Assembly (NCBI GenBank): GCA_027023345.1
Contig: JALVVO010000162.1
Coordinates: 1 to 37,559, forward strand
Origin: Thermaceae bacterium
GTDB taxonomy: Bacteria; Deinococcota; Deinococci; Deinococcales; Marinithermaceae
DNA length: 37,559 bases
Reading direction: 5' to 3'
Below the pieces are notes generated by a model. The model had not been told where the DNA came from. It made no database searches and saw only the letters and a list, made by a program, of their open reading frames with translations. The translations under genes were made by a program, and so were the position numbers. Positions 17,974-37,559 of this stretch are shown here, piece after piece. Each line of letters begins with the position of its first letter. The first letter of the stretch is position 1.

Positions 17974-17987
17974 CCCCGAGGCGAGCG

Positions 17988-18024
17988 GAAGGGGCCGACC
18001 GCGCGGTCGGCCCCTTCCTTTTTT
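17988..18024 (+). terminator. Intrinsic terminator after the conserved hypothetical gene
   Basis: GGAAGGGGCCGACCGCGCGGTCGGCCCCTTCCTTTTTT: long perfect stem plus T6 tract. Confidence 0.93.
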
Positions 18025-22394: not shown

Positions 22395-22559
22395 GGTCAT
22401 CGCACACCCCCAAATGGGGGGTTGCGCGACCGGTTGTCTCTTCGATACTTTCTCAAGTTAGCGGGAGGCGACGACCCCTACCTACGGAATATGGGCGCCA
22501 TCCGGGTAGGGCGAGCCAGTGGCGCAACCGGCCCGAGACCAACTCGGGTCGGGTTTTTT
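22395..22559 (+). ncRNA. Structured 5' leader RNA with intrinsic terminator: candidate riboswitch/attenuator upstream of the surface-protein operon
   Basis: Stable hairpin 22395-22431, potential H-type pseudoknot (22476-22482 x 22505-22511; 22495-22500 x 22520-22525), 10-bp terminator stem 22528-22552 and T6 tract 22554-22559, with competing upstream segments complementary to the terminator 5' arm. Confidence 0.65.
22528..22559 (+). terminator. Intrinsic terminator immediately upstream of the surface operon SD
   Basis: CCGGCCCGAG-ACCAA-CTCGGGTCGG-G-TTTTTT (10-bp stem with one G-U pair), followed directly by GGAGG. Confidence 0.85.
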
Positions 22560-22569
22560 GGAGGTGCAC

Positions 22570-23076
22570 GTGGTAGGACGCGGTCGGTTCCTGGTGGCGG
22601 GGCTGTTCCTCGCTGCGCTGGCGCTTGCGGCCTCGGGGCTTGAGCTCGAGCTCGCCTCGTACAAGGTCCTGAAGTTCACCAACGATGAAGGCGAGGTCGT
22701 CGAGAAGACGGTTCCTGCTGCCGAGGTCGCCCCGGGAGACGTACTCCTTTGGGTCCTCACCGCGAAAAACACGAGCGGCAAAACCCTGAAGCAGGTGGCC
22801 CTCACCATCCCCATCCCGCCTCGCACCGTCTATATCGCCGGCAGCGCCCATCCGCTGAAGCTGGGTGAAGTCGTGATCGAGCCCCTTTTCAGCTACGACG
22901 GGGTGCACTTTTCCCGCCCTCCACTTAAAAAGCGGATAAGGGTTAAGGAGGGAGACCGGTTCGTTGAGAAGGAGGTGGTTGTTCCCCCGGAGGCCTATAC
23001 ACACGTAAGGTGGTTGGTTCCCAGGCTTGAACCAGGGGTAAAGGTTCAGGTGAGCCTGCGCACGCGGGTGCGCTAA
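22570..23076 (+). CDS. Small secreted DUF11-like protein
   Basis: GTG start after GGAGG: VVGRGRFLVAGLFLAALALAASGLELELASYKVLKF...EVAPGDVLLWVLTAKNTSGKTLKQVALTIPIPPRTVYIAGSA. Signal peptide plus a single DUF11-like fold. Confidence 0.8.
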   Translation: MVGRGRFLVAGLFLAALALAASGLELELASYKVLKFTNDEGEVVEKTVPAAEVAPGDVLLWVLTAKNTSGKTLKQVALTIPIPPRTVYIAGSAHPLKLGEVVIEPLFSYDGVHFSRPPLKKRIRVKEGDRFVEKEVVVPPEAYTHVRWLVPRLEPGVKVQVSLRTRVR

Positions 23077-23106: not shown

Positions 23107-25803
23107 ATGAAAAGGGTACTTTTTGTAGGATTGCTGGCCGTGCTGGCGTTGGTTTGGGCCGTGGGCACCCCCGCGGGCACCGAGATCCGAAACCAGGCCT
23201 CGGCCAGCTACATCGACTCAGCCGGGCTACCCCAGACCACCACCTCCAACGAGGTGGTTACCGTAGTGCAGGAAGTCTATGGGGTTTCCATTACGCCCGA
23301 CGGTAGCGATGAGGCCAACCCAGGTCAGACCAAGTCGGGTTTGGCAGGTGGTCCGGTGTATTTCAACTACGTCGTCACCAACACCGGCAACACCACCGAT
23401 ACGATTAATTTGAGCATAGAGCAAGGAGCTGCCGACGATTTTGATTTCAGCAGTCACACTGTCTACCTCGACGCCAACTGCAATGCTCAGCTCGATACCG
23501 GTGAGAGCGCTGTGACCTCGGTCAACCTCGCCGCCGACGCGAGCGCCTGCCTGATCGTCGAGGCCACCATCCCGAGCTCGGCGACCGACGGGCAGATGGG
23601 CAACTTGAACATTACGGGTACAAGCCAAGGTGATAGCGGCGAGACCGACACCAACAACTGGGCCCGGGCCACGGTAAGCGGCACCGGGGTCATCAGCGCC
23701 ACCAAGAGCGCCGATCCCAGTGGCCCCGTGGCTCCGGGCGGCACGATCACCTACACCATCCACGGTTCCAACACCGGCAGCGACGATGCGGGTGGCGTGG
23801 CGAGCGTAGCAAACGTGGACGGCAACGACGAGAACGGTATCCTTGTGAGCGACCCGATCCCCACGGGAACGACTTACGTTCGAAATTCGGCTAGCGGCAC
23901 TACGATTGCTGGCACGGCCTCGGTCATTTACCAGACGAGCAGCGGCTGGACTGCCTCCGAGCCTACTAACCCCGCGGATGTCATCGCCGTTGGCTTGCTC
24001 ATTAAGGGCAGCGGGGCCTTCTTCACGCAAGGGGCTTGGTTCGACCTGAGCTTCCAGGTGCAGGTGGACGCGGGCGCCGCCCCCGGTAGCGCGATCGAGA
24101 ACACCGCGCATGTCCAGTACGATCCGGACGGCAACTCTAGTACGGATAACAATGCGACGGTTAACACCAACACCACCACCACCACGGTGGCCACGGTGGC
24201 CGGCGTCCAGAACGGCCCGCAGAACGATCCCGACGCCGACGGGACCGGCTTCGATTCCAACGCCGGGTACACCGATCCGACCGGCACCACCTGGTACTAC
24301 ACCGAGACGACGGGCGACCCGAACGACGCGGAGACCATCGACGACGACCGGAGCCCTGTCTACGGCGGCGACACCGTCTACTTCGAGAACACGCTGAAGA
24401 ACACCGGCAACGCGCCCGATCGCTTCACCCTCTCGCTCGAGGGCGTGCCCGATGGCTGGGTCTGCCAGCTGGTTGCCGCCGACGGTACCACGCCGATCAG
24501 CGGCCCCGTGGGCCCCATCGACCCCACGAATACGTTCAACTACGTCGTCAAGTGCTTGATTCCCGCCGACGAGGTCACCGCAAGCAATACCGAGATCACC
24601 GTGACGGCTACCTCGGAGAACGACCCCGCGGTCAGCAACCCGGTCAAGGACGTGGTTCCGCCGGTGCAGCCGGGCTACGGGGTGGATATCGCCCAGCACG
24701 GCAATGCTGGGGATGGCAATGACTCTAACGACAACCCGACTATTCCGAGTGTTGATCCAGGTACTACAGTTCTGATCCCCTTCGACGTCTATAACACCGG
24801 CCACAACTCCGACACCTACGACCTCTCCGCGGAGCTGAGCCCCAACGGCTTCCCCTCCACCATCTACCCTGACGCCAACTGCGATGGTGAAATGGACGAT
24901 CCGACTCCGGCTCCGGTCACCAATACCGGGCTGTTAAGCACCGATCCGCCTAATGACCACAAGTGCTTCATCCTTTCGGTCGAGGTTCCCGCCGGCCAGG
25001 CACCGGGCAGTGAGAACGTCACCATTACCGCCACCTCCAACGCAAACCCCAGCGTGACTGACTACATCACTACTACAATCACGGTCAACCCAGTGGTGAG
25101 CCTCGATTTCACCCCGGACCGCAGCGGCACCGTCACCAGCCCGGGCACCATCGTCTACACCCACACCCTCACCAACAACGGCAACACCAGCGCCACCGTC
25201 TCCTTCTCCGTGTCCGGCAGCACCCACCCGACTTGGACCTACCAGATCTCCACCGACGGGGGCAGCACGTGGTACGACCCCGCGGATGCCTCGGTTGGCC
25301 TGGGCGCGGGGGCGAACCAGGAGATCCAGGTCCGCGTCATCGTGCCCGACGGCGAGCCCATCGGGGCCGTGGACGCGGTGACCGTGACCGCGACCGCCGG
25401 GTCCGCAACCGCCTCGGTGACCGACACCACCACCGTGGTCGGCGGCGACCTGCGGCTCGAGAAGCAGGTGGACAAGACCGAAGCCGTGCCGGGTGAGACC
25501 CTGACCTACACGATCACCGCCATCAACATCGGCACCGCCGACCTCAAGCAGGTGATCGTCTCCGACCCGCTGCCCAGCTACACCGACTTCGTGAGCGTCT
25601 CGGCCAGCACCGACATCTCCGGCGGCACCGTGCTCTACTCCACCGACGGCGTCAACTGGAGCTCCAGCGCCCCCACCTCGCTCAACGCGGGCGACGCGAT
25701 CTACGTGGGCGTAGATACGGATGGCGACAACGACATCTCCGATACCGACTTAATGCCTCCGGGCAAGAGCATCACCATTACCTTCGTGGTGCGGGTGCAG
25801 TAG
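23107..25803 (+). CDS. Secreted multi-DUF11 repeat surface protein
   Basis: MKRVLFVGLLAVLALVWAVGTPAGTEIRNQASASYID...; repeated VTNTGNTTDTINLS, LKNTGNAPDRFTLSL, VYNTGHNSDTYDLS, LTNNGNTSATVSFSV; C-terminal DUF11 LRLEKQVDKTEAVPGETLTYTITAINIGTADLKQVIVSDPLPSYTDFVS. SD AGGAGGAAAAGGT. Confidence 0.92.
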   Translation: MKRVLFVGLLAVLALVWAVGTPAGTEIRNQASASYIDSAGLPQTTTSNEVVTVVQEVYGVSITPDGSDEANPGQTKSGLAGGPVYFNYVVTNTGNTTDTINLSIEQGAADDFDFSSHTVYLDANCNAQLDTGESAVTSVNLAADASACLIVEATIPSSATDGQMGNLNITGTSQGDSGETDTNNWARATVSGTGVISATKSADPSGPVAPGGTITYTIHGSNTGSDDAGGVASVANVDGNDENGILVSDPIPTGTTYVRNSASGTTIAGTASVIYQTSSGWTASEPTNPADVIAVGLLIKGSGAFFTQGAWFDLSFQVQVDAGAAPGSAIENTAHVQYDPDGNSSTDNNATVNTNTTTTTVATVAGVQNGPQNDPDADGTGFDSNAGYTDPTGTTWYYTETTGDPNDAETIDDDRSPVYGGDTVYFENTLKNTGNAPDRFTLSLEGVPDGWVCQLVAADGTTPISGPVGPIDPTNTFNYVVKCLIPADEVTASNTEITVTATSENDPAVSNPVKDVVPPVQPGYGVDIAQHGNAGDGNDSNDNPTIPSVDPGTTVLIPFDVYNTGHNSDTYDLSAELSPNGFPSTIYPDANCDGEMDDPTPAPVTNTGLLSTDPPNDHKCFILSVEVPAGQAPGSENVTITATSNANPSVTDYITTTITVNPVVSLDFTPDRSGTVTSPGTIVYTHTLTNNGNTSATVSFSVSGSTHPTWTYQISTDGGSTWYDPADASVGLGAGANQEIQVRVIVPDGEPIGAVDAVTVTATAGSATASVTDTTTVVGGDLRLEKQVDKTEAVPGETLTYTITAINIGTADLKQVIVSDPLPSYTDFVSVSASTDISGGTVLYSTDGVNWSSSAPTSLNAGDAIYVGVDTDGDNDISDTDLMPPGKSITITFVVRVQ

Positions 25804-25848
25804 GAAGCGTATGGCCCCTGGCCCGGCCGGGCCAGGGGCCCCTTCCTA
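25801..25848 (+). promoter_or_regulatory. Large intercistronic hairpin (mRNA stabiliser or attenuator)
   Basis: Perfect 28-nt palindrome GGCCCCTGGCCCGGCCGGGCCAGGGGCC (25813-25840) nested inside complementary TAGGAAG (25801-25807) / CTTCCTA (25842-25848); no T tract. Confidence 0.8.
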
Positions 25849-25858
25849 AGGAGTCGGG

Positions 25859-28579
25859 ATGGGTCCCCACCAAATTCCGACCAAGACCAAGTTCGCGGGC
25901 GTATTCTTCCTCGTGCTCGCCTTGCTCGTCCCGGGCCTGGCCTGGGCCGTGGTGCCGGCCGGGACCGTGATCGAGAACCAAGCCAGCGCTACCGTAGCCT
26001 CGGGCGAGCGGTACGTGTCGAACCTGGTGCAGACCGTGGTCAAGCCGGTCTGCGTGCCCGAGCTCGCCCCCGGCGGTACTCCCACTCACCCCGGCCAGCG
26101 CACGTCGGTTGGGGCCGGCGGGTACGCGGTCTTACCCTACGTCCTTTCCAACCAAGGAAACGCGGAGTTCGATTTCCAACTCGCTTGGGCCGAGGCGGCT
26201 GGTTCCGACTGGCACCCCGCTGAGGCCAAGCTTTTCCTGGATGAAAACGCCAACGGCGAAGCTGATCCCGGGGAGCCCGAGGTCGATCAAGTTCGCCTTG
26301 CTTTTGGCGAGTCGGCCCGGCTGGTGCTCCGCGTGAAGGCCCCCGTCGGGGCCAGCGGGAGCCTCTGGATTACGCCGGTTGCCCGGTGTCCCTCGGGCGA
26401 GACCGACGACCAGAACTACGCCGAGGTCCGCCTGGTCTCGGGGCCGGCGCTCGCGGTGGAAAAGCGCTTTTCCCCGGCCGCCGTGCTCCCTGGCGAGGCA
26501 ACCGGCGTGGAGCTCAAGGTCCGCAACCTGGGCGACGCCCCGGCCGGCGGCGAGGTGGTGCTCAGCGACGATCTAGAGTCCCTCTCCGGACTCGCTTACG
26601 TCCCCGGCAGCGCTGAGGCTCCCAAGGGCACGATCGAGTACCGGGGGTCGAGTGGGTGGCAGACGAGCGAGCCCTCGGAGGTGTTGGGGATCCGCCTGCG
26701 CCTTTCCGACCTCGACGTCGGCGAGGAGGCGGTACTCCGCTTCCGCCTTGAGGTGGCGGCCGGCCACGCCCCCGGCGCCGTGGAGAACGCCGCGCGCGCC
26801 GAGGGGCCGGGGGGACCCGCGGAGGCTCGGGCGGCCCTTGAGGTCCTCCCGCTTCGGGCCCACTACCTTGGACCCGGCGGAAACCCCCGCGCCCTCCCCG
26901 GCGGCGAGGGCAGCGCGGACGACCGCCAGTCGGCCTCGATCATCGAAGGGCAGCGCTACTGCTTCGATCAGACCCTAGAGAACGCAGGGAACGCCGAGGA
27001 CGCCTACGACCTCGACGTAAAGGGTGTTCCCGCCGGCTTCCAGGTGACCCTGGTCCAGCCCGGCGATGCGCCGCTTCCGAGCCCTGTGGTCTTGCCCGCG
27101 GGATCCTCGCTCGACTTCCAGGTCTGCCTTCGGGCGCCGGCCGGGAGCGCGGGCTCCCCGGGGTTTGAGCTCGAGCTCACGGCTATCTCGCGGGCGACCG
27201 GCGAGACCAACCGGACCTGGGATCGGGTGGAGCGTGTGTATCCGGCCGGCGGCGTGGTCCTGACCAAAACGGTCGAGCCCGAGGGTCCGGTGGCGGCGGG
27301 CACCACGCTGACCTACACCCTGACCGCGGAGAACACCTATCCCTTTGACCTCCACGACGTGGTCGTCCGGGATCCCCTGGACGAGCACCTCGAGTACGTC
27401 GAGAGCGACCCCGCCGGCGCCTACGACGCCGCGCGGCACCGGGTCGAGTGGCGTTTCGATCGGCTCGCGGCCGGGGCCCGCTGGCAGGCCACGCTGGTCG
27501 TGCGAGTCAAGGAAGGCGTGCCCGACGACACCCGGATCGCGAACCGGTTCAGCCTAGAAAGCCGGGAGATCTCCGACCCGGCGGTCTCCGCTCCCGTCGA
27601 GACCCAGGTCTGGTCCACCCAGATCCTGCTCAAGAAAGAGGTTGCGGCCCGGCGCGTCCGCGTAGGCGACCGGGTGCGCTACACACTGACCTTGAAGAAC
27701 CCCGGAAAGGTGGCGGTCACGCTGGACCTCGCCGACCTCCCCGACGCCCACCTCCGCTACCTGCCGGGGAGCGCGACCCCGAGCGAGCCGGAGGTCGAGG
27801 ACGGGCGGTTGATCTGGCGAGCGATCCACCTGGCCCCGGGAGAGGAGAAGTCCTTTAGCTACGAGATGCGGGTGCTTCCGGGCGCCCCCCGGGAGATTAC
27901 GAACCGCGCCATCGCCCAGGGCGAGAGCGCCGGGGGCACGGCGCTGGCCACCGGCTGGGTGCGGGCGCGGCTCTTGAGCGAGGATCCGACGATGCTCGAG
28001 CGCCGCGGCACCCTGGTCGGCCGGGTGTTCCTCGACGCGAATCGCGACGGCCGCTTTGATCCCGGGAAGGACACCCCGCTGCCCGGGGCGCGGGTGGTGC
28101 TCGCGGACGGCCGGCAGGCCCTGACCGACCTTGAGGGGCGCTACGCCTTCCGAGACCTCGACCCCGGCGTTTGGCTGGTCGGCCTTGAACCCGCCAGCGC
28201 CCCGTTCCCGCCGTTGCCGCATCCCGCGGCCGTGGGCGAGGGGTACGCGCACCGCGTGCAGGTCTACGGCCTCGCGGTCAGCGACTTCCCGCTCGCCGAG
28301 CCCAAGGGCTGGATCCGCTCGATCCGGGAGACCGAGCTCAGGATGGGGCCGCTCACCTTGAAAAAGCGCCTCTTGCCCCTGGATGAGGGGCGGTACCGGG
28401 TGGTGCTCTGGCTTTCGTCGGAGCAGCCGATCCCCGAGCTCACCGTTCGCGACCCCCTGCCCGGCGGTGGCGAGAAGCGCTTTGCCTTCGACCGTTTCGT
28501 GGGCACCAAGACGATCACCTACGACCTGAGCGCCCCCGCGTGGCTCACCGACCCTGAGGTTCGCTGGAGGTACCCATGA
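25859..28579 (+). CDS. Secreted multi-DUF11 protein with an SdrD B-like domain near the C-terminus
   Basis: Signal peptide FAGVFFLVLALLVPGLAWA, PAGTVIENQASATVASGERYVSNLVQTVVKPV; DUF11 repeats (VLTKTVEPEGPVAAGTTLTYTLTAENTYPFDLHDVVVRDPLDEHLEYVES; ILLKKEVAARRVRVGDRVRYTLTLKNPGKVAVTLDL); GRVFLDANRDGRFDPGKDTPLPGARVVLADGRQALTDLEGRYAFRDLDPG. Confidence 0.9.
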   Translation: MGPHQIPTKTKFAGVFFLVLALLVPGLAWAVVPAGTVIENQASATVASGERYVSNLVQTVVKPVCVPELAPGGTPTHPGQRTSVGAGGYAVLPYVLSNQGNAEFDFQLAWAEAAGSDWHPAEAKLFLDENANGEADPGEPEVDQVRLAFGESARLVLRVKAPVGASGSLWITPVARCPSGETDDQNYAEVRLVSGPALAVEKRFSPAAVLPGEATGVELKVRNLGDAPAGGEVVLSDDLESLSGLAYVPGSAEAPKGTIEYRGSSGWQTSEPSEVLGIRLRLSDLDVGEEAVLRFRLEVAAGHAPGAVENAARAEGPGGPAEARAALEVLPLRAHYLGPGGNPRALPGGEGSADDRQSASIIEGQRYCFDQTLENAGNAEDAYDLDVKGVPAGFQVTLVQPGDAPLPSPVVLPAGSSLDFQVCLRAPAGSAGSPGFELELTAISRATGETNRTWDRVERVYPAGGVVLTKTVEPEGPVAAGTTLTYTLTAENTYPFDLHDVVVRDPLDEHLEYVESDPAGAYDAARHRVEWRFDRLAAGARWQATLVVRVKEGVPDDTRIANRFSLESREISDPAVSAPVETQVWSTQILLKKEVAARRVRVGDRVRYTLTLKNPGKVAVTLDLADLPDAHLRYLPGSATPSEPEVEDGRLIWRAIHLAPGEEKSFSYEMRVLPGAPREITNRAIAQGESAGGTALATGWVRARLLSEDPTMLERRGTLVGRVFLDANRDGRFDPGKDTPLPGARVVLADGRQALTDLEGRYAFRDLDPGVWLVGLEPASAPFPPLPHPAAVGEGYAHRVQVYGLAVSDFPLAEPKGWIRSIRETELRMGPLTLKKRLLPLDEGRYRVVLWLSSEQPIPELTVRDPLPGGGEKRFAFDRFVGTKTITYDLSAPAWLTDPEVRWRYP

Positions 28580-31500
28580 GGTTCTTCGCGAGGGTCGCCC
28601 TTTGGACCGTTTTTCTAGCCGCGATCTTTGCCCGGGGCGAAGGCGATTGGAAAACGGGCATTCCCCTGATCGTTCCCGGGGACGCCCTTGGTTGGGAGAC
28701 GAGCGAGCTTCAGGTCGTGCTGGAAGTTAAGAAGCCCTCGGAGCTCGAAGTCCTGCTCTACTCCCCAGGCTTCGACCCCACGGACTACCGTTCGCCCCGC
28801 GAGCTCGGCGACGAGCGGTACGACCAGGGTAAGGGGGATCTGCTCGCGGTCTACGAGCTTCGCCAGGGCCGGCGGGTGATCGTCCGCAAGCGCTACGGCG
28901 TCGAGCCTCACGCCTGGCACCGGCTGTTTTCCGGGCGGCTGCTTCCCGGCGAGTACGTGATCGCCTCGCGCTTCTTCGGCAACGCCAAGAACGCGGTGGT
29001 CTTCGCGCTCAAGGTCCGGTCGGGCGAGGCCCGGTTGTTGCTGGCCCCGAACGCCATGCAGACCTACAACGTGGTTCGGGGAGGTTGGCAAACGCCCTTT
29101 AGGCTCCACGTCCCCGAATACTCGCGAGACCTCAAGGTCGGCATCTACGACGGCGACGGGCCCAAGGAGCTCGAGCTCAGGGTCCAGACTCCGAAGGGCG
29201 AGCTCCGCCCTCCGGTTCCCGGCAACCGCGCCTGGACCTACGTCGCCACCGAGGAGCCCGGCGAATACGCCTTCCGCTTCCGCATCCCCGAGACCGCGAC
29301 CCAGCACACCAACACGGTGGGTTTCAAGGTCTCCCTGGGCCGGATTCGCGTGGAGATCGTGGACACCGAGGGGCGCCCGGTGCCCGGCGCGAGCTACCGG
29401 GTGCGCGGGCAGTACCGGCGGGTGGTGGAACTGAAGAAGCCCGCGGGCTGGGAGCTGGTGGAGACGCGCGTGGACGGCGGGCGGGAGCTCGGGCCCGGAC
29501 AGGTGGCGTTCGGCATGGGCTCGGGCTCGGTGCGCTTCGTGCTCAAGCGCGAGCGGTCTCCGGGTCGGCTCGTCGTGCGCGCGCGGGTGGTCTGCGGCGA
29601 CTTCCAGGAGCCCTATCCCCTCGAGCTCAGGGTGGGCGACCGCGCCCTCCGCCTGCCCCCGAGCGGGGAGGCCGAGCTCGAGCTCGACCCCGGCGCCTAC
29701 GACCTCGCGCCCGCCCCGGTCCCCGGGGCCCGTGTGGAGGGCGACGCCCGCGTCGAGGTAGTCCCGGGGCGCACCGTTCGGGCCGAGCTCTGGATCCACC
29801 CCGAGGTCCGGCTGAGCCTGCGTCCGGCGGCCGAGGCCAAGGTCGGGGTGCCGGTGCCCGTGCAGCTCCGGGCCGAGACCGCATTCTCGGGGACGCTGCC
29901 TTTGAAGCTCTTCTTGGAGCTCCCCGAGGGGCTCGAGTCCCGGGGGCCCGCGTCGGTCCAGGCACCGCTCTCCGCCGATCGGCCGGTGGAGATCGAGGTG
30001 CCGGTGGTGGCGAGGAAAGCGGGAGACTTTACCCTCGCCGCCCGGGCGGAGCCCTGTGGCGGCCGCGCCCGGGCGACCCTGCGGGCGGTGAGCCCGGCCG
30101 CCTTCGTCCTGAAAAAGACCGCGCTCACCCCCGAGGTGGCGGTGGGGCAGGAGGCCGCGTTCCGCGTCGAGGTCGTGAACACCGGCGGGACGGCCGGCGA
30201 GGTGCGCCTTCTGGACCCCGCGCCCCGGGGCTTCGTGGGGCCCTCGCTCAACGAGACCTTGCGGCTCGAGCCCGGCGAGCGCTACCAGAAGGTGATCCGC
30301 GGGCGGGTCACCGAGGACGCCGGCGAACGGCTCTTGAACCGGGCCTGGCTCTACCAGGCGGGGCGCGAGCTGGCCAAGGCTGAGGCCGAGGTGCGGGTGC
30401 TCCAGCCCCAGCCCGGGCTCTCGCGCCGCGTCGAGCCTCGGGTGGTGCTGCCCGGCGAGACCGTGACCACCTGTCTGCAGGTGGAAAACCGCGGCCAGGC
30501 CCCGATGACCTACCGCCTGGAGGACCGGCCCCCCGACTGGTTGGAGCCCGAGGGGACGACGGTCTTTTCTGGCGCGCTGGATCCGGGCGCCCAGGCCGAG
30601 CACTGCTACCGCGCGGGCGTCCGCTACGGCGCTCCGGTGGAGGGGACCTTCGAAGCGGTGCTCGAAAGCAGCGCCGGCCGCCTCAGCAACCGCGCCACGA
30701 TCCGCCGCGAGCTGCTTCGGCTGGAGAAGGAGGCGGAGCCCGCGAGGGTCCTTCCCGAGCACCTGGTGCGTTTCCAGGTCACCGTCGCGAACCCCCTCAA
30801 CCGGCCGGTTCGGGTCCGCGTCCTCGATACCCCCGCCGCCGGGCTCGGCATGCGGGGCTTCGAGGAGGAGGTCGAGCTACCCGCCCGGGGTCGGAAGACC
30901 TTCGAGCTCGAGGCCCGTCCCTCCCAGGTGGGCCGCTTGAAGAACCGGGTCGCCGCCTACCTCGGCGACACCCCCGCTGCCCGGCCCGCCTCGGCCGAGG
31001 TCGAGGTCGTGCCTCCGCTCACCGCCGAGCGGGTCTCGCGCGTGGTGGTCCGCTTCACGGTCGAGGGCGAGGGGGACGCCCTGCTCATCCGCCAGGCCCT
31101 GCCCTCTGGCGCCCGCTACCGGAGGGGCACCGCCCGGATGGACGGGCGCCCGCTTCCCGACCCGCGGGTGGACGACGAGGGCCGGCTTTACTGGAAGATC
31201 CCCTTCGCCAAAGAGGGAAGGCTTAGCTTCGAGCTCGCCCACGCGTCCGCCCTGGAACGCTTGCCCGAGCCCGAGCTCACGTTGCTCGTCGGGGACCGCG
31301 AGCTGCCCCTTCAGGGTGACCTGAGGCTCGCGGACTACCGGCGCGCCCGCCCGCTCGGGAAAAAGACCCGCGAGGGGCTCATCAAGGAACCGCTCCCCGG
31401 CACCGTGTTCCGCGATCGCGGCAGCGCCCGGGTACGGGTGGTGGCTCCCTACGGACGCCCCGTCGAGCTCTTCGTGAACGGCGAGCCGGTGGACCGCTCC

Positions 31501-34002
31501 CGCCTCGGCGAGGCCCGCTACGACAAGGCACGGGGCGTCGCCGAGCTGCAGTACTACGGGGTACCCCTCAAGGTGGGGTCCAACCGGATCGAGGTGCGGG
31601 CCGGCGACGCGGTGGACCGGATCGAGGTCTTCCGGACCGGGCCGGCCGAGCGGCTGGTGGTGATTCCCGAGCGGATGGTCGCCGACGGGCGCACGCCGAT
31701 CCGCCTCCGGATCGAGGCCCAAGACGCCCTTGGGCTGGCCACCGGCGAGGGCTTCGTCACCGTGGAGGCGAGCCCCGAGCCGGCGAAACCCGACGCCGCG
31801 CCCCGGGAGTCCGGGTATCAGGTTGCCATGCGGAACGGCGTCGCCGAGCTCGTGCTGAAGCCGGTCGCCCACGCCACCGAGGTCCGCGTCAAGGCGGCCA
31901 AGGACGGGCTCGTCACCGAGTACCGGGGCTTCGCCGGGGGCGCCGACCGCCGCTTCTACCTAGCCCAGGGAAGCGTCACCGTGCGCTTCCAGGACGGCTT
32001 CGAGCTGGGCGGCCTAGCCCGCGGGTACCTGGAGACCCCCCTCGCGGGCGGGCACCTGCAGGGGGCGCTGAACGTGGCCGCCGGCGAGGGGCAGCTCTAC
32101 CCCGGGCTCGACCGCCCCGAGGACCCGAACGGGAGGTTCCCACTCACCGGCGCCGGCGTGGAGGCCCGGCTGGCCCTCGCCTCCGAGGACGGGGTGGCCT
32201 TCCGCTACGACCGCGGCCCCTTCTCGGTCGGCTACGGCCGGCTCGGGATGGCGCTTTCCAACCTGGTCGGCATGCCAAAGAGCAGCGTCCTCGCCGCCGA
32301 GTACCGGGGGCCGGTGCGGGTGGCGGCCTTCGTCGGGCTCCTGCCGCGGGAGCTCCTCCGCGAGGTGCTCGTTCCCGACGGGACCCGGATCTACCGCCTC
32401 TCCCGGCCGGCGAAGCCCGGGAGCGAGCGGGTCTACCTGGAGCGGGGCGGGGTCCGCGAGCGCTTGGTCCCGCTCCGGGACTACGTCCTCGACGCGCCGA
32501 GCGGCACCCTCTACCTGGCCCGGTCGCTTTGGCCATGGGACGCCTCCTTCGTCGAGCAGCGGCTCGTCGTCTACTACGCCCCCGAGGCCGCGCCCCGCGA
32601 GCGCGTCGGGGTGGGGGCCGCCGTGGGCTACCGTCGGGGCGGCTTTAGCCTGGAGCTCGCCGCGGCCAGCCTGGACCTCGGCCGCAGCCTGAACCTGGGG
32701 GCGGCCCTGGGCTACCGCACCAAGGGCTTCGGGTTGTCCCTCACCTACCGCCTCGAGGACGGGCAGAGCGCCCTTGGTCTGACCGCCGAGGGCGAGCGGG
32801 GGCCGATCTCGGCCCGGGCAAACCTCCACTACGCCGGTACCCTTTCCGGGCGGGCCCGGGTGGCGGCGAAGATCGGGAGCGCCGGTCGGGCGGTGCTCGA
32901 GCACCAGGGCCGCTCCGGTTCGAACCAGACCCGCCTGCTCTACGAGCACGACCTCGGCCGAAACCTCTTCGCCGGCGTCGGTGGCGGGTACTTCTGGGAG
33001 GAGAAGGCGTTCGCCTTGCTCGGCCGGCTCGGCTACCAGGACGCCCGCGCCCGCCTCACCCTGACCCACGCCCAGCCCTTCTCGGTTGCGCCCGAGACCG
33101 GCCTCGACGCCCGCTACGCCTTCGACGCCAACCTCAGCCTGGAGGCGGGTCTGCGCTACCGCTGGGGGCTGGGGCTTTCGGGCGTGCTCGGCCTCGATCA
33201 AAAGCTCGGCCCCGCCAATCTCGCCATCCGCTACCAGCTCCCGGGCGCGGGAGGCGAGGGGAACCGGGCTCGCTTCGGCGTTCGGGCGCCACTGCCGCTT
33301 GGCGACCGCTGGTCGCTCGACTTCTCCGCCGGGTACGAACGGAGCTTCGCCTCCGGCGAGGCCCAGGCCGGCGCCGGGGTGGCCGTCCGCTACCGGTCGG
33401 AGGGCTTTACCGCGAGCTTCGGCGTCGAGGGCGCCACCGGCACCTCCGGCGACAAGGTCACCCTCAGGGCCGGTGCCGGCGGCCAGATCGACCGCCGGCA
33501 GGTGGTCTCCTTCGACGTCAACTACCAGGTGGTTCCCGAGCCCGCTGGGAAGTTCACCCTGGCCTACGCGTTCCGCGGCCGGGTGCTCCAGGTGCTTACC
33601 TACCACCGGTACACTAGCCGGGAGGCGGTGCTCGAGGGCGAGCTCGCCCCCACCTGGCACCCGAACCTTTCCTTCCAGCTCAGGCCCAGCGCGGCCTACC
33701 GGATTTACTTCGCCGATCCGGGCGGCAACACCTACCAGCTCGGCCTTGGCTTCAACTATTACTTCACCCGTCGCCTGGGCTTCGGCGCGGGAGGGTACTA
33801 CGTGATACAACCGGGTACGGATACTCGTGAGCTGGCTTTCAGCGTGGAGGGCAGCTTCCGCGTGCTCGACCCGCTCTGGCTGAACCTCGGCTACACCTTT
33901 GGCGGCTTCCGCGGCCTCACCCCCGAGGCGCGGCCGGGGGTCTACCTGCGGCTGGACCTCTTCGATGGCGGCTGCGGGTGCCCGGAGGGGGTGGACCAAT
34001 GA
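28576..34002 (+). CDS. Large outer-membrane protein: N-terminal DUF11/Ig-like repeats plus predicted C-terminal beta-barrel
   Basis: 1808 aa. DUF11-like units (FVLKKTALTPEVAVGQEAAFRVEVVNTGGTAGEVRLLDPAP), invasin-like Ig segment (PAERLVVIPERMVADGRTPIRLRIEAQDALG), then many alternating amphipathic strands from about residue 1140 (RFYLAQGSVTVRFQDGFELGG ... GLGFNYYFTRRLGFGAGGYYVIQPG ... LNLGYTFGGF ... GVYLRLDLFDGG). Start overlaps the preceding stop (ATGA). Confidence 0.88.
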   Translation: MRFFARVALWTVFLAAIFARGEGDWKTGIPLIVPGDALGWETSELQVVLEVKKPSELEVLLYSPGFDPTDYRSPRELGDERYDQGKGDLLAVYELRQGRRVIVRKRYGVEPHAWHRLFSGRLLPGEYVIASRFFGNAKNAVVFALKVRSGEARLLLAPNAMQTYNVVRGGWQTPFRLHVPEYSRDLKVGIYDGDGPKELELRVQTPKGELRPPVPGNRAWTYVATEEPGEYAFRFRIPETATQHTNTVGFKVSLGRIRVEIVDTEGRPVPGASYRVRGQYRRVVELKKPAGWELVETRVDGGRELGPGQVAFGMGSGSVRFVLKRERSPGRLVVRARVVCGDFQEPYPLELRVGDRALRLPPSGEAELELDPGAYDLAPAPVPGARVEGDARVEVVPGRTVRAELWIHPEVRLSLRPAAEAKVGVPVPVQLRAETAFSGTLPLKLFLELPEGLESRGPASVQAPLSADRPVEIEVPVVARKAGDFTLAARAEPCGGRARATLRAVSPAAFVLKKTALTPEVAVGQEAAFRVEVVNTGGTAGEVRLLDPAPRGFVGPSLNETLRLEPGERYQKVIRGRVTEDAGERLLNRAWLYQAGRELAKAEAEVRVLQPQPGLSRRVEPRVVLPGETVTTCLQVENRGQAPMTYRLEDRPPDWLEPEGTTVFSGALDPGAQAEHCYRAGVRYGAPVEGTFEAVLESSAGRLSNRATIRRELLRLEKEAEPARVLPEHLVRFQVTVANPLNRPVRVRVLDTPAAGLGMRGFEEEVELPARGRKTFELEARPSQVGRLKNRVAAYLGDTPAARPASAEVEVVPPLTAERVSRVVVRFTVEGEGDALLIRQALPSGARYRRGTARMDGRPLPDPRVDDEGRLYWKIPFAKEGRLSFELAHASALERLPEPELTLLVGDRELPLQGDLRLADYRRARPLGKKTREGLIKEPLPGTVFRDRGSARVRVVAPYGRPVELFVNGEPVDRSRLGEARYDKARGVAELQYYGVPLKVGSNRIEVRAGDAVDRIEVFRTGPAERLVVIPERMVADGRTPIRLRIEAQDALGLATGEGFVTVEASPEPAKPDAAPRESGYQVAMRNGVAELVLKPVAHATEVRVKAAKDGLVTEYRGFAGGADRRFYLAQGSVTVRFQDGFELGGLARGYLETPLAGGHLQGALNVAAGEGQLYPGLDRPEDPNGRFPLTGAGVEARLALASEDGVAFRYDRGPFSVGYGRLGMALSNLVGMPKSSVLAAEYRGPVRVAAFVGLLPRELLREVLVPDGTRIYRLSRPAKPGSERVYLERGGVRERLVPLRDYVLDAPSGTLYLARSLWPWDASFVEQRLVVYYAPEAAPRERVGVGAAVGYRRGGFSLELAAASLDLGRSLNLGAALGYRTKGFGLSLTYRLEDGQSALGLTAEGERGPISARANLHYAGTLSGRARVAAKIGSAGRAVLEHQGRSGSNQTRLLYEHDLGRNLFAGVGGGYFWEEKAFALLGRLGYQDARARLTLTHAQPFSVAPETGLDARYAFDANLSLEAGLRYRWGLGLSGVLGLDQKLGPANLAIRYQLPGAGGEGNRARFGVRAPLPLGDRWSLDFSAGYERSFASGEAQAGAGVAVRYRSEGFTASFGVEGATGTSGDKVTLRAGAGGQIDRRQVVSFDVNYQVVPEPAGKFTLAYAFRGRVLQVLTYHRYTSREAVLEGELAPTWHPNLSFQLRPSAAYRIYFADPGGNTYQLGLGFNYYFTRRLGFGAGGYYVIQPGTDTRELAFSVEGSFRVLDPLWLNLGYTFGGFRGLTPEARPGVYLRLDLFDGGCGCPEGVDQ

Positions 34003-37000
34003 GGACTCTTCGTTGGCTGCTGGGAGCGCTGGTGCTGGCAGCTGCGTTTACTCCCGCCTTGGCTGATCAGCAGGCCGACATCGGCGGCGGGGCTTTCGGA
34101 AGCGTTCACAAGAACGTCCTGTACAGCGTGGACACGGTTTCGGGCAAGGCAACTCGGCTGGCCACCGTACCTGATGTGATCGGTGGGATTGATACCAATG
34201 CGAGCTCGGATGGGGTGAACTCGCTAGCTCTAAATACCGAGGATGGCGTTATGTATTTTACTAGCAATACAACGTCCGATGATAACAATAAAGCTATTTT
34301 TTACTACGACATGGTCAATGACCAATTTGGGATTCTGGTTGAGGATGTGACGCTGCTGGGTGTTAGTTTTTCTGGTAAAGGTCTTGGTAGCGCTGGCGCG
34401 GCCTTTTACGATGGGCGACTCTACTTCGGGGTTGAAACTGGTAGTAGCTCGTACCAATCAAAGATCTACAGCCTTCCGGTCAGCGCTGATGGAAAAGCTG
34501 TTCCTGCAGGTGCCACTGCTACGCTGGAGTATGTTTCAGGTAAATACTCCAATTTTATGCAGTGGGGTGATTTTGCACTTGGCGCCTCGGATAGGGGGAC
34601 GCATCTTTACATAGGTTGTAGCGTCTACTCGGGTGGGACATTTAAGGATAAGTGGCAGGTCTGGGACCTGGGTCTTTTAGGCTCGCAAGGTGACGAAACT
34701 ATTCTTGTTAACAACGACAAATCTTTTGGTCAAATTGGCTTCGACTTGAATGGTAATTACTATTTTGTATTTGGGAACACGAATACGTTCGCCCCCATAA
34801 ATCTCGAAACAGGTGATACGGGTTCCTCTATAGACATAACCTTGGATGGCTCCACGTCGCCTGATGATGGATCCTTTGATGCTGCTGGTATTATTCCTTG
34901 GCACGCAGAGGTTCGGGGGGTGGTCTGGGAAGATTCGAACGGGGACGGATTCAAGAACACGCACGAGAGCGGCATCGCGAACGTCACCGTAGACTTGTAC
35001 GAGGATCTCAACAACAATGGTCAGTATGACAGCGGTGAGAGGTTGTTGGCGAGGGACACCACCGGTGCGGATGGAAGTTATCGGATCTACGATCTGATTC
35101 CAGGCAACTACGTCGTCGTTGTCTCCGATCAAAACGGCGTTCTCAGCGGGGGGAGTTTTACCACTCCAAGTTCAGCGTCCGTGGCGGTTAGGGTTAACCA
35201 GCAGAAAGATAGCGTGAACTTCGGTTACCAGCACCGCTACACCTTGGAAGGCCGCGTGTATGAGGACGTTAACGGTGACGCAAACCTCTCCGACGCAGAG
35301 CCGCGTTCGGGCGTTGCCGTATACCTCTATCAAGACGACGGCGATGGGCAGCCGGATGCCGGAGACAATTTCCTTTGGCAGACGACCACAGGTTCCGACG
35401 GGAGTTACAGCTTTACGGGGCTGGCGGATGGCACCTACTGGGTGGTCGTGGACTCTAAAAACGTTGGCCCTTCGGCCGGCTTCAATAGCGGTTATAACCA
35501 GAGCGATGTTTGGGCCGAGCAGACCTATGGGCCTAAAGGGGCCTGGTGCGCCAACCCTGATGGACAGCTAGGGACTGGGGACCCCTACGAGCGGACGTCA
35601 GCAGGGGCATGCTTTGGCGGTCGGCGGGGGGCGGTTTCCGATAACGTGCCATCCGGGGCGACTTCGTTGGATGAGGCAGGGGATGCGCGTTTCGAGCATA
35701 TCGCCAAAGTGGAGGTTTCTGGTGAGGACGTCTCGGGGATAGACTTCGGTTTCTCCTTCAACGTCGTCACCAACACCAACGACCAGGACGATGATCCTGC
35801 CGAGGACCGCACTGCCCAGGGTTCCTTGCGCCAGTTCATCCAGAACGCGAACGCGATTCAAGGCGCCAACGCCATGCGCTTCGTGCCGGCAGTGCCTACG
35901 AACGCCAGCGGCGGTGGCGGCGATTGGTGGCACATAGACCTGGCCCTCGATAGCGACAACGACGGCACCGTAGACATCCTCCCGCCCATCACCGATAACG
36001 ACACCACCGTAGACGGTACCGCCTATAGCTTTAACAATGGGACCACCGTGCTGAACACCAACCGGGGGACGGTCGGCGGCGACGTATACGTTGGCACCGG
36101 TCCCGATGGTATCGAGGGCACGGACGACGAACACTACCTCGCTCCCTTTGACAGGCCCGAACTGGAGATCGCAGGTAACGGGGCTGGGGGAGGCGCGGCA
36201 AGCGCCTCGGCTGTGCTGGAAGCTCGGGGCGGGTCGTCATCCAATAGGGTCAGCAATGTGAACATTGTCAACCTCGCCATCTACAAGCAGTTTGGGGGGC
36301 AAAATCCTGCTACCACTAGTAGTAATGAGGCTGTTGCATTCACAAACGCCACCAACAGCGTTTTGCGAAATGCTTTGCTGGGTGTACACGCCGATGGCGC
36401 CCCACCTCAGAACGAGGATGAAAGCGTGGGTATCGGTGTGCGCATATCTGGTTCTGACCACGTTAGTGTTTCGCGCGTGTATTCAGCATACGCACAGGTG
36501 TATAGTGCCTATTTAGATCAAAGAAACGGTGCGAATACAGAATATATTACAATCAGCGACTTCGAGGCGGGGCATTCTGGATATACTACACGAGTCAGCT
36601 GGGGCGATAACATCGCCATCTACAACACTATGAATACCACAGTTAAATGGGTATACTCCCACGATGCTCAGACCAGCAACAGCAATGCGATTGCTTACGC
36701 TGGAGCCGGCATAGAGGTTTGGTATGGGGTGCAGAACACAGTTATCACTGAGAATTTGCTTGAAAACAATACCTATCACGGCATCGTATTTGGCCAAGCT
36801 GGGTACGGCGGCGATAACAAGGAGGTATCGGTATTACACAACGTAATCCGCAATAACAACGGCCCTGGTATATTGCTGGCCGTCAAAGACAGTTATGAAA
36901 TATCAATTTCTAAAAATGCTCTTTACGATAATGAGGGCCCCGGCATAGATATCGATGCAAATAGTAGCATATCCGAAAACGGCGACGGGGTTACCCCTAA

Positions 37001-37559
37001 CGACGGATCTTTGTCGGACGACGAACCTAACAAGGGTCTAGACTATCCCATCTTCACCAAGGTCGCCCTGCAAACAAGTGGCAACAACAAGACGCTACAA
37101 CTGGAGGGCTACGTTGGCACTGCGGATAACCCTCTTTCCGGCTCCTTTACCATCGAGGTCTACAAGGCCGACGACGACGGCAACAACGACGGTGAGGTCG
37201 AGGCGGGCGACGGGGAGAGCGTGCCCCATGGCGAGGGCCGCTGGTACCTGGGCAGCTGCAGCGCTACCGACGGGACCTTCGACTGTACGCTTTCGGTTCC
37301 GGGCGGGGTGAGCCTGGGGGCTGGCGACGCCATCACCGGAACCGCCACCGACGAGGACGGCAACACCTCGGAGTTCGGGGCCAATAAGGCGGTGGCGGAA
37401 AAGTCGCCATACGCTGGGCAGGTGGTCATCAACGAAATTCTGTACCGGGGTACAGGCAACACGGCCGATACCAACGACGAGTTTGTGGAAATCTACAACG
37501 CCGGCGACACCACGGTAGACCTGAGCGGTTGGCGGCTTGCCGATGGTGATCCATTGAGC
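33999..37559 (+). CDS. Giant secreted surface protein: beta-propeller-like N-terminus, SdrD B-like domains, right-handed beta-helix, lamin-tail domain; truncated by window end
   Basis: ATG 33999 (ATGA overlap with preceding stop); MRTLRWLLGALVLAAAFTPALADQQADIGGGAF...; VRGVVWEDSNGDGFKNTHESGIANVTVDLYEDLNNNGQYDSGERLLARDTTGADGSYRIYDLIPGNYVVVV; LEGRVYEDVNGDANLSDAEPRSGVAVYLYQDD; EDRTAQGSLRQFIQNANAI; VITENLLENNTYHGIVFG; VVINEILYRGTGNTADTNDEFVEIYNAGDTTVDLSGWRLADGD. No in-frame stop seen before the window end, so absent from the ORF track. Confidence 0.9.
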   Translation, partial: MRTLRWLLGALVLAAAFTPALADQQADIGGGAFGSVHKNVLYSVDTVSGKATRLATVPDVIGGIDTNASSDGVNSLALNTEDGVMYFTSNTTSDDNNKAIFYYDMVNDQFGILVEDVTLLGVSFSGKGLGSAGAAFYDGRLYFGVETGSSSYQSKIYSLPVSADGKAVPAGATATLEYVSGKYSNFMQWGDFALGASDRGTHLYIGCSVYSGGTFKDKWQVWDLGLLGSQGDETILVNNDKSFGQIGFDLNGNYYFVFGNTNTFAPINLETGDTGSSIDITLDGSTSPDDGSFDAAGIIPWHAEVRGVVWEDSNGDGFKNTHESGIANVTVDLYEDLNNNGQYDSGERLLARDTTGADGSYRIYDLIPGNYVVVVSDQNGVLSGGSFTTPSSASVAVRVNQQKDSVNFGYQHRYTLEGRVYEDVNGDANLSDAEPRSGVAVYLYQDDGDGQPDAGDNFLWQTTTGSDGSYSFTGLADGTYWVVVDSKNVGPSAGFNSGYNQSDVWAEQTYGPKGAWCANPDGQLGTGDPYERTSAGACFGGRRGAVSDNVPSGATSLDEAGDARFEHIAKVEVSGEDVSGIDFGFSFNVVTNTNDQDDDPAEDRTAQGSLRQFIQNANAIQGANAMRFVPAVPTNASGGGGDWWHIDLALDSDNDGTVDILPPITDNDTTVDGTAYSFNNGTTVLNTNRGTVGGDVYVGTGPDGIEGTDDEHYLAPFDRPELEIAGNGAGGGAASASAVLEARGGSSSNRVSNVNIVNLAIYKQFGGQNPATTSSNEAVAFTNATNSVLRNALLGVHADGAPPQNEDESVGIGVRISGSDHVSVSRVYSAYAQVYSAYLDQRNGANTEYITISDFEAGHSGYTTRVSWGDNIAIYNTMNTTVKWVYSHDAQTSNSNAIAYAGAGIEVWYGVQNTVITENLLENNTYHGIVFGQAGYGGDNKEVSVLHNVIRNNNGPGILLAVKDSYEISISKNALYDNEGPGIDIDANSSISENGDGVTPNDGSLSDDEPNKGLDYPIFTKVALQTSGNNKTLQLEGYVGTADNPLSGSFTIEVYKADDDGNNDGEVEAGDGESVPHGEGRWYLGSCSATDGTFDCTLSVPGGVSLGAGDAITGTATDEDGNTSEFGANKAVAEKSPYAGQVVINEILYRGTGNTADTNDEFVEIYNAGDTTVDLSGWRLADGDPLS

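Follow-up and report, generated by a model that had tools for sequence, protein, structure and literature searches.

A conserved T-less hairpin between two genes of a surface-protein operon in the Deinococcota, and its possible role as an mRNA boundary

What is a hairpin of this strength doing between two genes of one operon, right at the end of the first and with no T tract behind it? The question arises in a 37.6-kb window (the whole stretch of DNA analysed here, from a Thermaceae bacterium), in which an operon of surface-protein genes runs along the forward strand. The complete hairpin occupies 25801–25848. At its heart is a perfect 28-nt palindrome, GGCCCCTGGCCCGGCCGGGCCAGGGGCC (25813–25840), which forms a 12-bp stem with a GGCC tetraloop and whose position is kept in relatives; around it, TAGGAAG (25801–25807) pairs with CTTCCTA (25842–25848) in an outer stem of 7 bp. 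The first three letters of that outer stem are the TAG stop codon of the upstream gene, P1 (25801–25803). The AAGGAG Shine–Dalgarno sequence of the next gene, P2, adjoins the outer stem at 25848–25853, just outside the hairpin, and the P2 start, an ATG, follows at 25859. The tail after the stem is CCTTCCTAAG, with no run of Ts. A first-pass annotation had described the hairpin, from the coordinates, the palindrome and the outer stem to the enclosed stop codon, the missing T tract and the closeness of the Shine–Dalgarno sequence, and direct reading of the sequence bears it out. We found no published description of the operon or its hairpin in the literature searched.

The operon begins with a leader. 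A c-di-GMP-II riboswitch aptamer (RF01786, 55.4 bits) spans 22455–22542, and a terminator-like hairpin with six Ts, likely the expression platform, overlaps its 3′ end at 22528–22558. At the operon head is P0, a small signal-peptide/DUF11-like protein (22570–23076), followed by P1, a DUF11 surface protein (23107–25803), and P2, a second DUF11/SdrD-B-like protein (25859–28579). Then come P3, a protein of 1808 residues with what looks by eye like a C-terminal β-barrel (28576–34002), and P4, an SdrD-B-type surface protein cut by the end of the window (33999–37559); the layout in Thermus thermophilus HB8 is homologous. The start proposed earlier for P1, at 23107 behind a GGAGG, is a plausible one within a frame that is open from 23083. 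No PDB relatives of P1 or P3 were found. The starts of P3 and P4 each overlap the preceding stop by 4 nt (ATGA), and of the three junctions from P1 to P4 in the window only P1/P2 has a sizeable gap.

Might the riboswitch and the hairpin belong together? Similarly placed c-di-GMP-II-GAG riboswitches, about 550 nt upstream of P1, occur in four g12 relatives (G055, G024, G045 and G033), and none was found at most other P1 orthologues, so we rejected the riboswitch as a conserved partner of the hairpin. The class itself is common: 77 of the 111 genomes of the order carry c-di-GMP-II riboswitches, often in tandem pairs, with a maximum of 21 matches in G101.

Folding 81 nt of RNA at the P1/P2 junction gives a minimum free energy of −45.1 kcal/mol and returns the 12-bp stem, its GGCC loop and the outer stem. 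The z-score of this fold against shuffles is only −1.97, modest because the sequence is so GC-rich. Uninterrupted pairing is a better measure of how unusual the hairpin is. The window holds two uninterrupted Watson–Crick stems of at least 11 bp, against 0.23 expected from dinucleotide shuffles. One is the P1/P2 hairpin. The other, at 17987–18018, is a canonical intrinsic terminator: a perfect 16-nt inverted repeat with a TTTTTT tail. The P1/P2 hairpin was absent from a terminator scan of the window and lacks the U run that directly follows the GC hairpin of a canonical (L-shaped) intrinsic terminator. Nor did it match any Rfam family at the gathering score, the only match elsewhere in the window being c-di-GMP-II.

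A search of the 111 genomes of the order, with E up to 1e-60, found P1 orthologues in 46 of them, and a separate search added two more distant ones (G017 and G018). We retrieved 47 operon loci, which with the window make 48 junctions, and the gene order P1–P2–P3 is kept in nearly all the retrieved loci. In T. thermophilus HB8, the operon lies on plasmid pTT27 (TTH_RS10905–RS10925); further named relatives are T. thermophilus SNM1-7 and Deinococcus gobiensis. Four of the 48 junctions could not be read. Three belong to Thermus draft assemblies (L084, L087 and L088) that break exactly at the hairpin, in N and poly-C/G, as expected of short-read assembly failing in a strong hairpin; the element is thus misread in public drafts, and in two of the three the P1 C terminus is misread as well. 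At the fourth, L063 (G080), the segment with the stop and the hairpin is missing, P1 gaining a few residues along with the loss of its stop, an apparent loss that may be an assembly artefact. At L089 (G041:C1:2839372-2843287), P1 lies in two pieces about 1.2 kb apart, suggesting an insertion or a gene split.

A hairpin stands directly 3′ of the P1 stop in 43 of the 44 readable junctions. In 38 it has an uninterrupted stem of at least 9 bp within 75 nt of the stop, and in five (L069, L070, L071, L074 and L085) it is long and imperfect. The sole junction with none is L090 (G070), where the hairpin segment is missing through true loss or assembly artefact. Both HB8 and SNM1-7 carry the hairpin; D. 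aquaticus has one further from the stop, and in the D. gobiensis homologue the gap is 14 nt long without a comparable stem. The 5′ arms come in 32 distinct versions spread over 13 genera in 5 families of the order. At a matched threshold of at least 9 bp, stems are found at 38/44 P1 ends and at 3/40 P2 ends of the same operons. Control gene ends, drawn from simple ORF calls over about 0.8 Mb of two genomes (G009 and G074), have them in 35/138 tandem gaps of 20–300 nt and 27/122 convergent ends. Fisher's test gives p of at most 5e-13 for P1 ends against controls, a value that is indicative only, given those simple gene calls and orthologous rows that are related and not independent. Conservation on this scale raises the importance of the hairpin first noticed in the window.

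It is the pairing that has been maintained. In an alignment of 13 junctions from Thermaceae, 98.1% of cells pair, a figure that falls to 69% or less once one arm is shifted by a single column. Six of the 12 pairs show double compensatory changes, a count that none of 500 shuffles reached. The alignment was made with MAFFT, which is blind to structure; the structure was taken from one row of the alignment. What evolution has kept is the place of the hairpin and not its sequence. This bears on the idea that the element acts as DNA, as the site of a dimeric regulator, a cruciform or a mobile repeat of the REP/BIME type. The perfect palindrome of the window copy invites such a reading, which we nonetheless consider barely credible: sequences change from genus to genus without loss of pairing, and the loops of the relatives are mostly not palindromic. 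A DNA operator is disfavoured by that turnover. A REP/BIME repeat, of which many copies would be expected, was rejected since the palindrome is single-copy: a search of its own genome gave one strong match, itself. A search for related loci among genome contigs found none.

Where exactly does the hairpin sit? Measured from the first base of the P1 stop, the median stem start is +12, with 32 of 38 stems between +8 and +14; control hairpins start at +19. The P2 start, by approximate calls, ranges between about +43 and about +150. The hairpin is thus anchored to the stop upstream and not to the start downstream, and the fixed distance to one and variable distance to the other point to a role in the end of P1 rather than in the initiation of P2. 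Since relatives keep the distance to the upstream stop and not that to the downstream start, the stop codon within the outer stem and the nearness of the Shine–Dalgarno sequence are local details of the window copy. Sequestration of the Shine–Dalgarno sequence was rejected as a conserved role; the P2 start lies at no constant distance, and in the window the sequence lies outside the stem.

The same geometry would also suit a translational insulator. A stem some 10 nt behind the stop would block ribosomes that have finished P1 from sliding on or re-initiating at P2, leaving the translation of P2–P4 to be set independently. Stems with a median start of +12 would abut a ribosome positioned on the stop codon, and in nearly every locus the P1/P2 junction has both a gap and a structure, whereas P2/P3 is a 4-nt NTGA stop/start overlap in all 44 loci examined. 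Yet 12 GC pairs exceed what insulation needs, a gap alone would uncouple the two genes, and the P2 start wanders out to distances at which coupling would be lost anyway. We regard the insulator as quite improbable. The contrast on which it draws, a conserved hairpin at P1/P2 against an overlap at P2/P3, nevertheless gives the operon a conserved layout in two parts: P0–P1, the hairpin, and a coupled P2–P3–P4.

At several loci (the window, L101, L102, L067, L089, L072, L076 and L097), the stem is about 10–20 nt from the P2 ATG. This is too short for a promoter, so transcription of P2 must either pass through the hairpin or start within P1. Could the hairpin still be a partial intrinsic terminator, of the U-less kind called I-shaped? 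A fraction of polymerases would then stop there, leaving more P0–P1 than P2–P4 message. This is the main rival, and its place just after a stop codon suits it. Many gene ends in the two control genomes carry strong T-poor hairpins too, including convergent ends, which must terminate, so a shortage of Ts is by itself no proof against termination. However, the P1-end hairpins differ from these other gene-end hairpins. Their longest T run after the stem averages 1.3 against 2.3 in controls (p=1.6e-4), they start nearer the stop, and a C-rich 5′ arm is found in 31/38 of them against 27/71 of the controls. The same genome also uses T-tailed terminators, both at 17987–18018 and at the riboswitch. 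The hairpin does share the lack of a U tract with I-shaped terminators, yet it lies inside an operon and has to be read through wherever no promoter fits. On balance, we think a partial terminator somewhat unlikely.

What lies between the hairpin and P2 also varies by lineage. Nine g12 relatives (L092, L094–L096, L098–L100, L081 and L085) have a second, locus-specific hairpin there, GTGCGAGAGCC...GGCTCTCGCAC in most and single copy where found. It is followed by a T run in most cases and is a possible attenuator, which suggests that the T-less first hairpin has a different job in these relatives and tells against termination there. Between the hairpin and the P2 start, the Thermus loci (L062–L083) and L187 share a T-rich leader in which CTTTT / GGTTTTCACAGGG motifs recur at intervals.

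The reading that fits best is that the hairpin acts as a 3′ protective or processing boundary for the P0–P1 mRNA, of the malE–malF type. We would put it a little short of an even chance. RNA polymerase would read through the hairpin (there being little room for a promoter beyond it) and make a full P0–P1–P2–P3–P4 transcript. RNase Y, J or III might then cut downstream, and 3′-to-5′ exonucleases such as PNPase and RNase R would halt at the GC-clamped hairpin. A longer-lived P0–P1 mRNA would be left, the translationally coupled P2–P3–P4 part would decay faster, and P1 message would end up in excess. T. thermophilus, which lacks RNase E, possesses PNPase and RNase R along with RNase Y and RNase J (PMC4229858). 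In E. coli operons, stabilised 5′ genes mostly end at U-less hairpins thought to resist 3′-to-5′ exonucleases (PMC5927463). The first-pass annotation had proposed a 3′ stabiliser or partial terminator that would raise the level of P1 protein over that of the downstream products. That class of explanation is the right one and gains from the conserved position, the compensatory changes, the missing U tract and the forced read-through; the mechanism itself is a candidate, and a shift in protein ratio would be a further prediction.

Some observations count against a protective boundary. In a cyanobacterium, half-lives were shorter for transcripts with U-less hairpins than for transcripts with U-tract terminators (PMC7406221). 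The hairpin is missing at L090, apparently lost at L063, and has no counterpart in D. gobiensis. Codon adaptation to ribosomal genes, a weak test, did not rank P1 above P2 and P3 in 3 of 4 genomes, and higher P1 expression is unsupported on that score.

A broader proposal is that we are looking at a clade-wide device of the Deinococcota, in which a stop-anchored U-less hairpin splits a surface-protein operon into an uncoupled P0–P1 part and a tightly coupled P2–P3–P4 part. Selection would act on structure and distance to the stop and not on sequence, possibly with processing by RNase III or RNase Y/J instead of RNase E; control of the operon by c-di-GMP is predicted in some lineages only. As a whole this is unlikely, and we offer it tentatively. 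Even so, the locus provides a clean natural series, with 32 different arms at one fixed place in a single operon across five families, and with the overlapping P2/P3 junction as an internal control. With such a series, the rules that U-less intercistronic hairpins follow can be tested in bacteria without RNase E, such as T. thermophilus. Since HB8, a standard laboratory strain, carries the operon, the roles of stabiliser, terminator and insulator can be distinguished in that organism.

How does the hairpin compare with systems already known? The closest likeness is to E. coli operons with U-less 3′ protective hairpins, malE–malF among them (Dar and Sorek 2018, PMC5927463), in which a stable U-less hairpin, kept in relatives, likewise stands between a stabilised 5′ gene and the downstream genes of the operon. 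The differences are instructive. Ours is in a different phylum, in which T. thermophilus lacks RNase E; it is not a repeated REP element; and it keeps a near-fixed distance of about 12 nt from the stop, most of the E. coli hairpins being found within the coding region that follows (PMC5927463). Any stabilising effect of ours is a predicted one. I-shaped terminators are alike in placing a GC-rich hairpin without a T run soon after a stop codon; the P1/P2 hairpin differs from them in lying inside a conserved operon, in that it would have to be read through in several lineages, and in being T-poorer and nearer the stop than other hairpins at gene ends in the clade. In the puf (photosynthesis) and pap (fimbrial) operons, an intercistronic hairpin downstream of an abundant structural subunit sets the stoichiometry of the segments. 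Our hairpin resembles these in its placement, although there is no homology, and P1 may not be the most abundant product. As a device it most likely belongs to a known kind; its setting is newly documented and unusually conserved.
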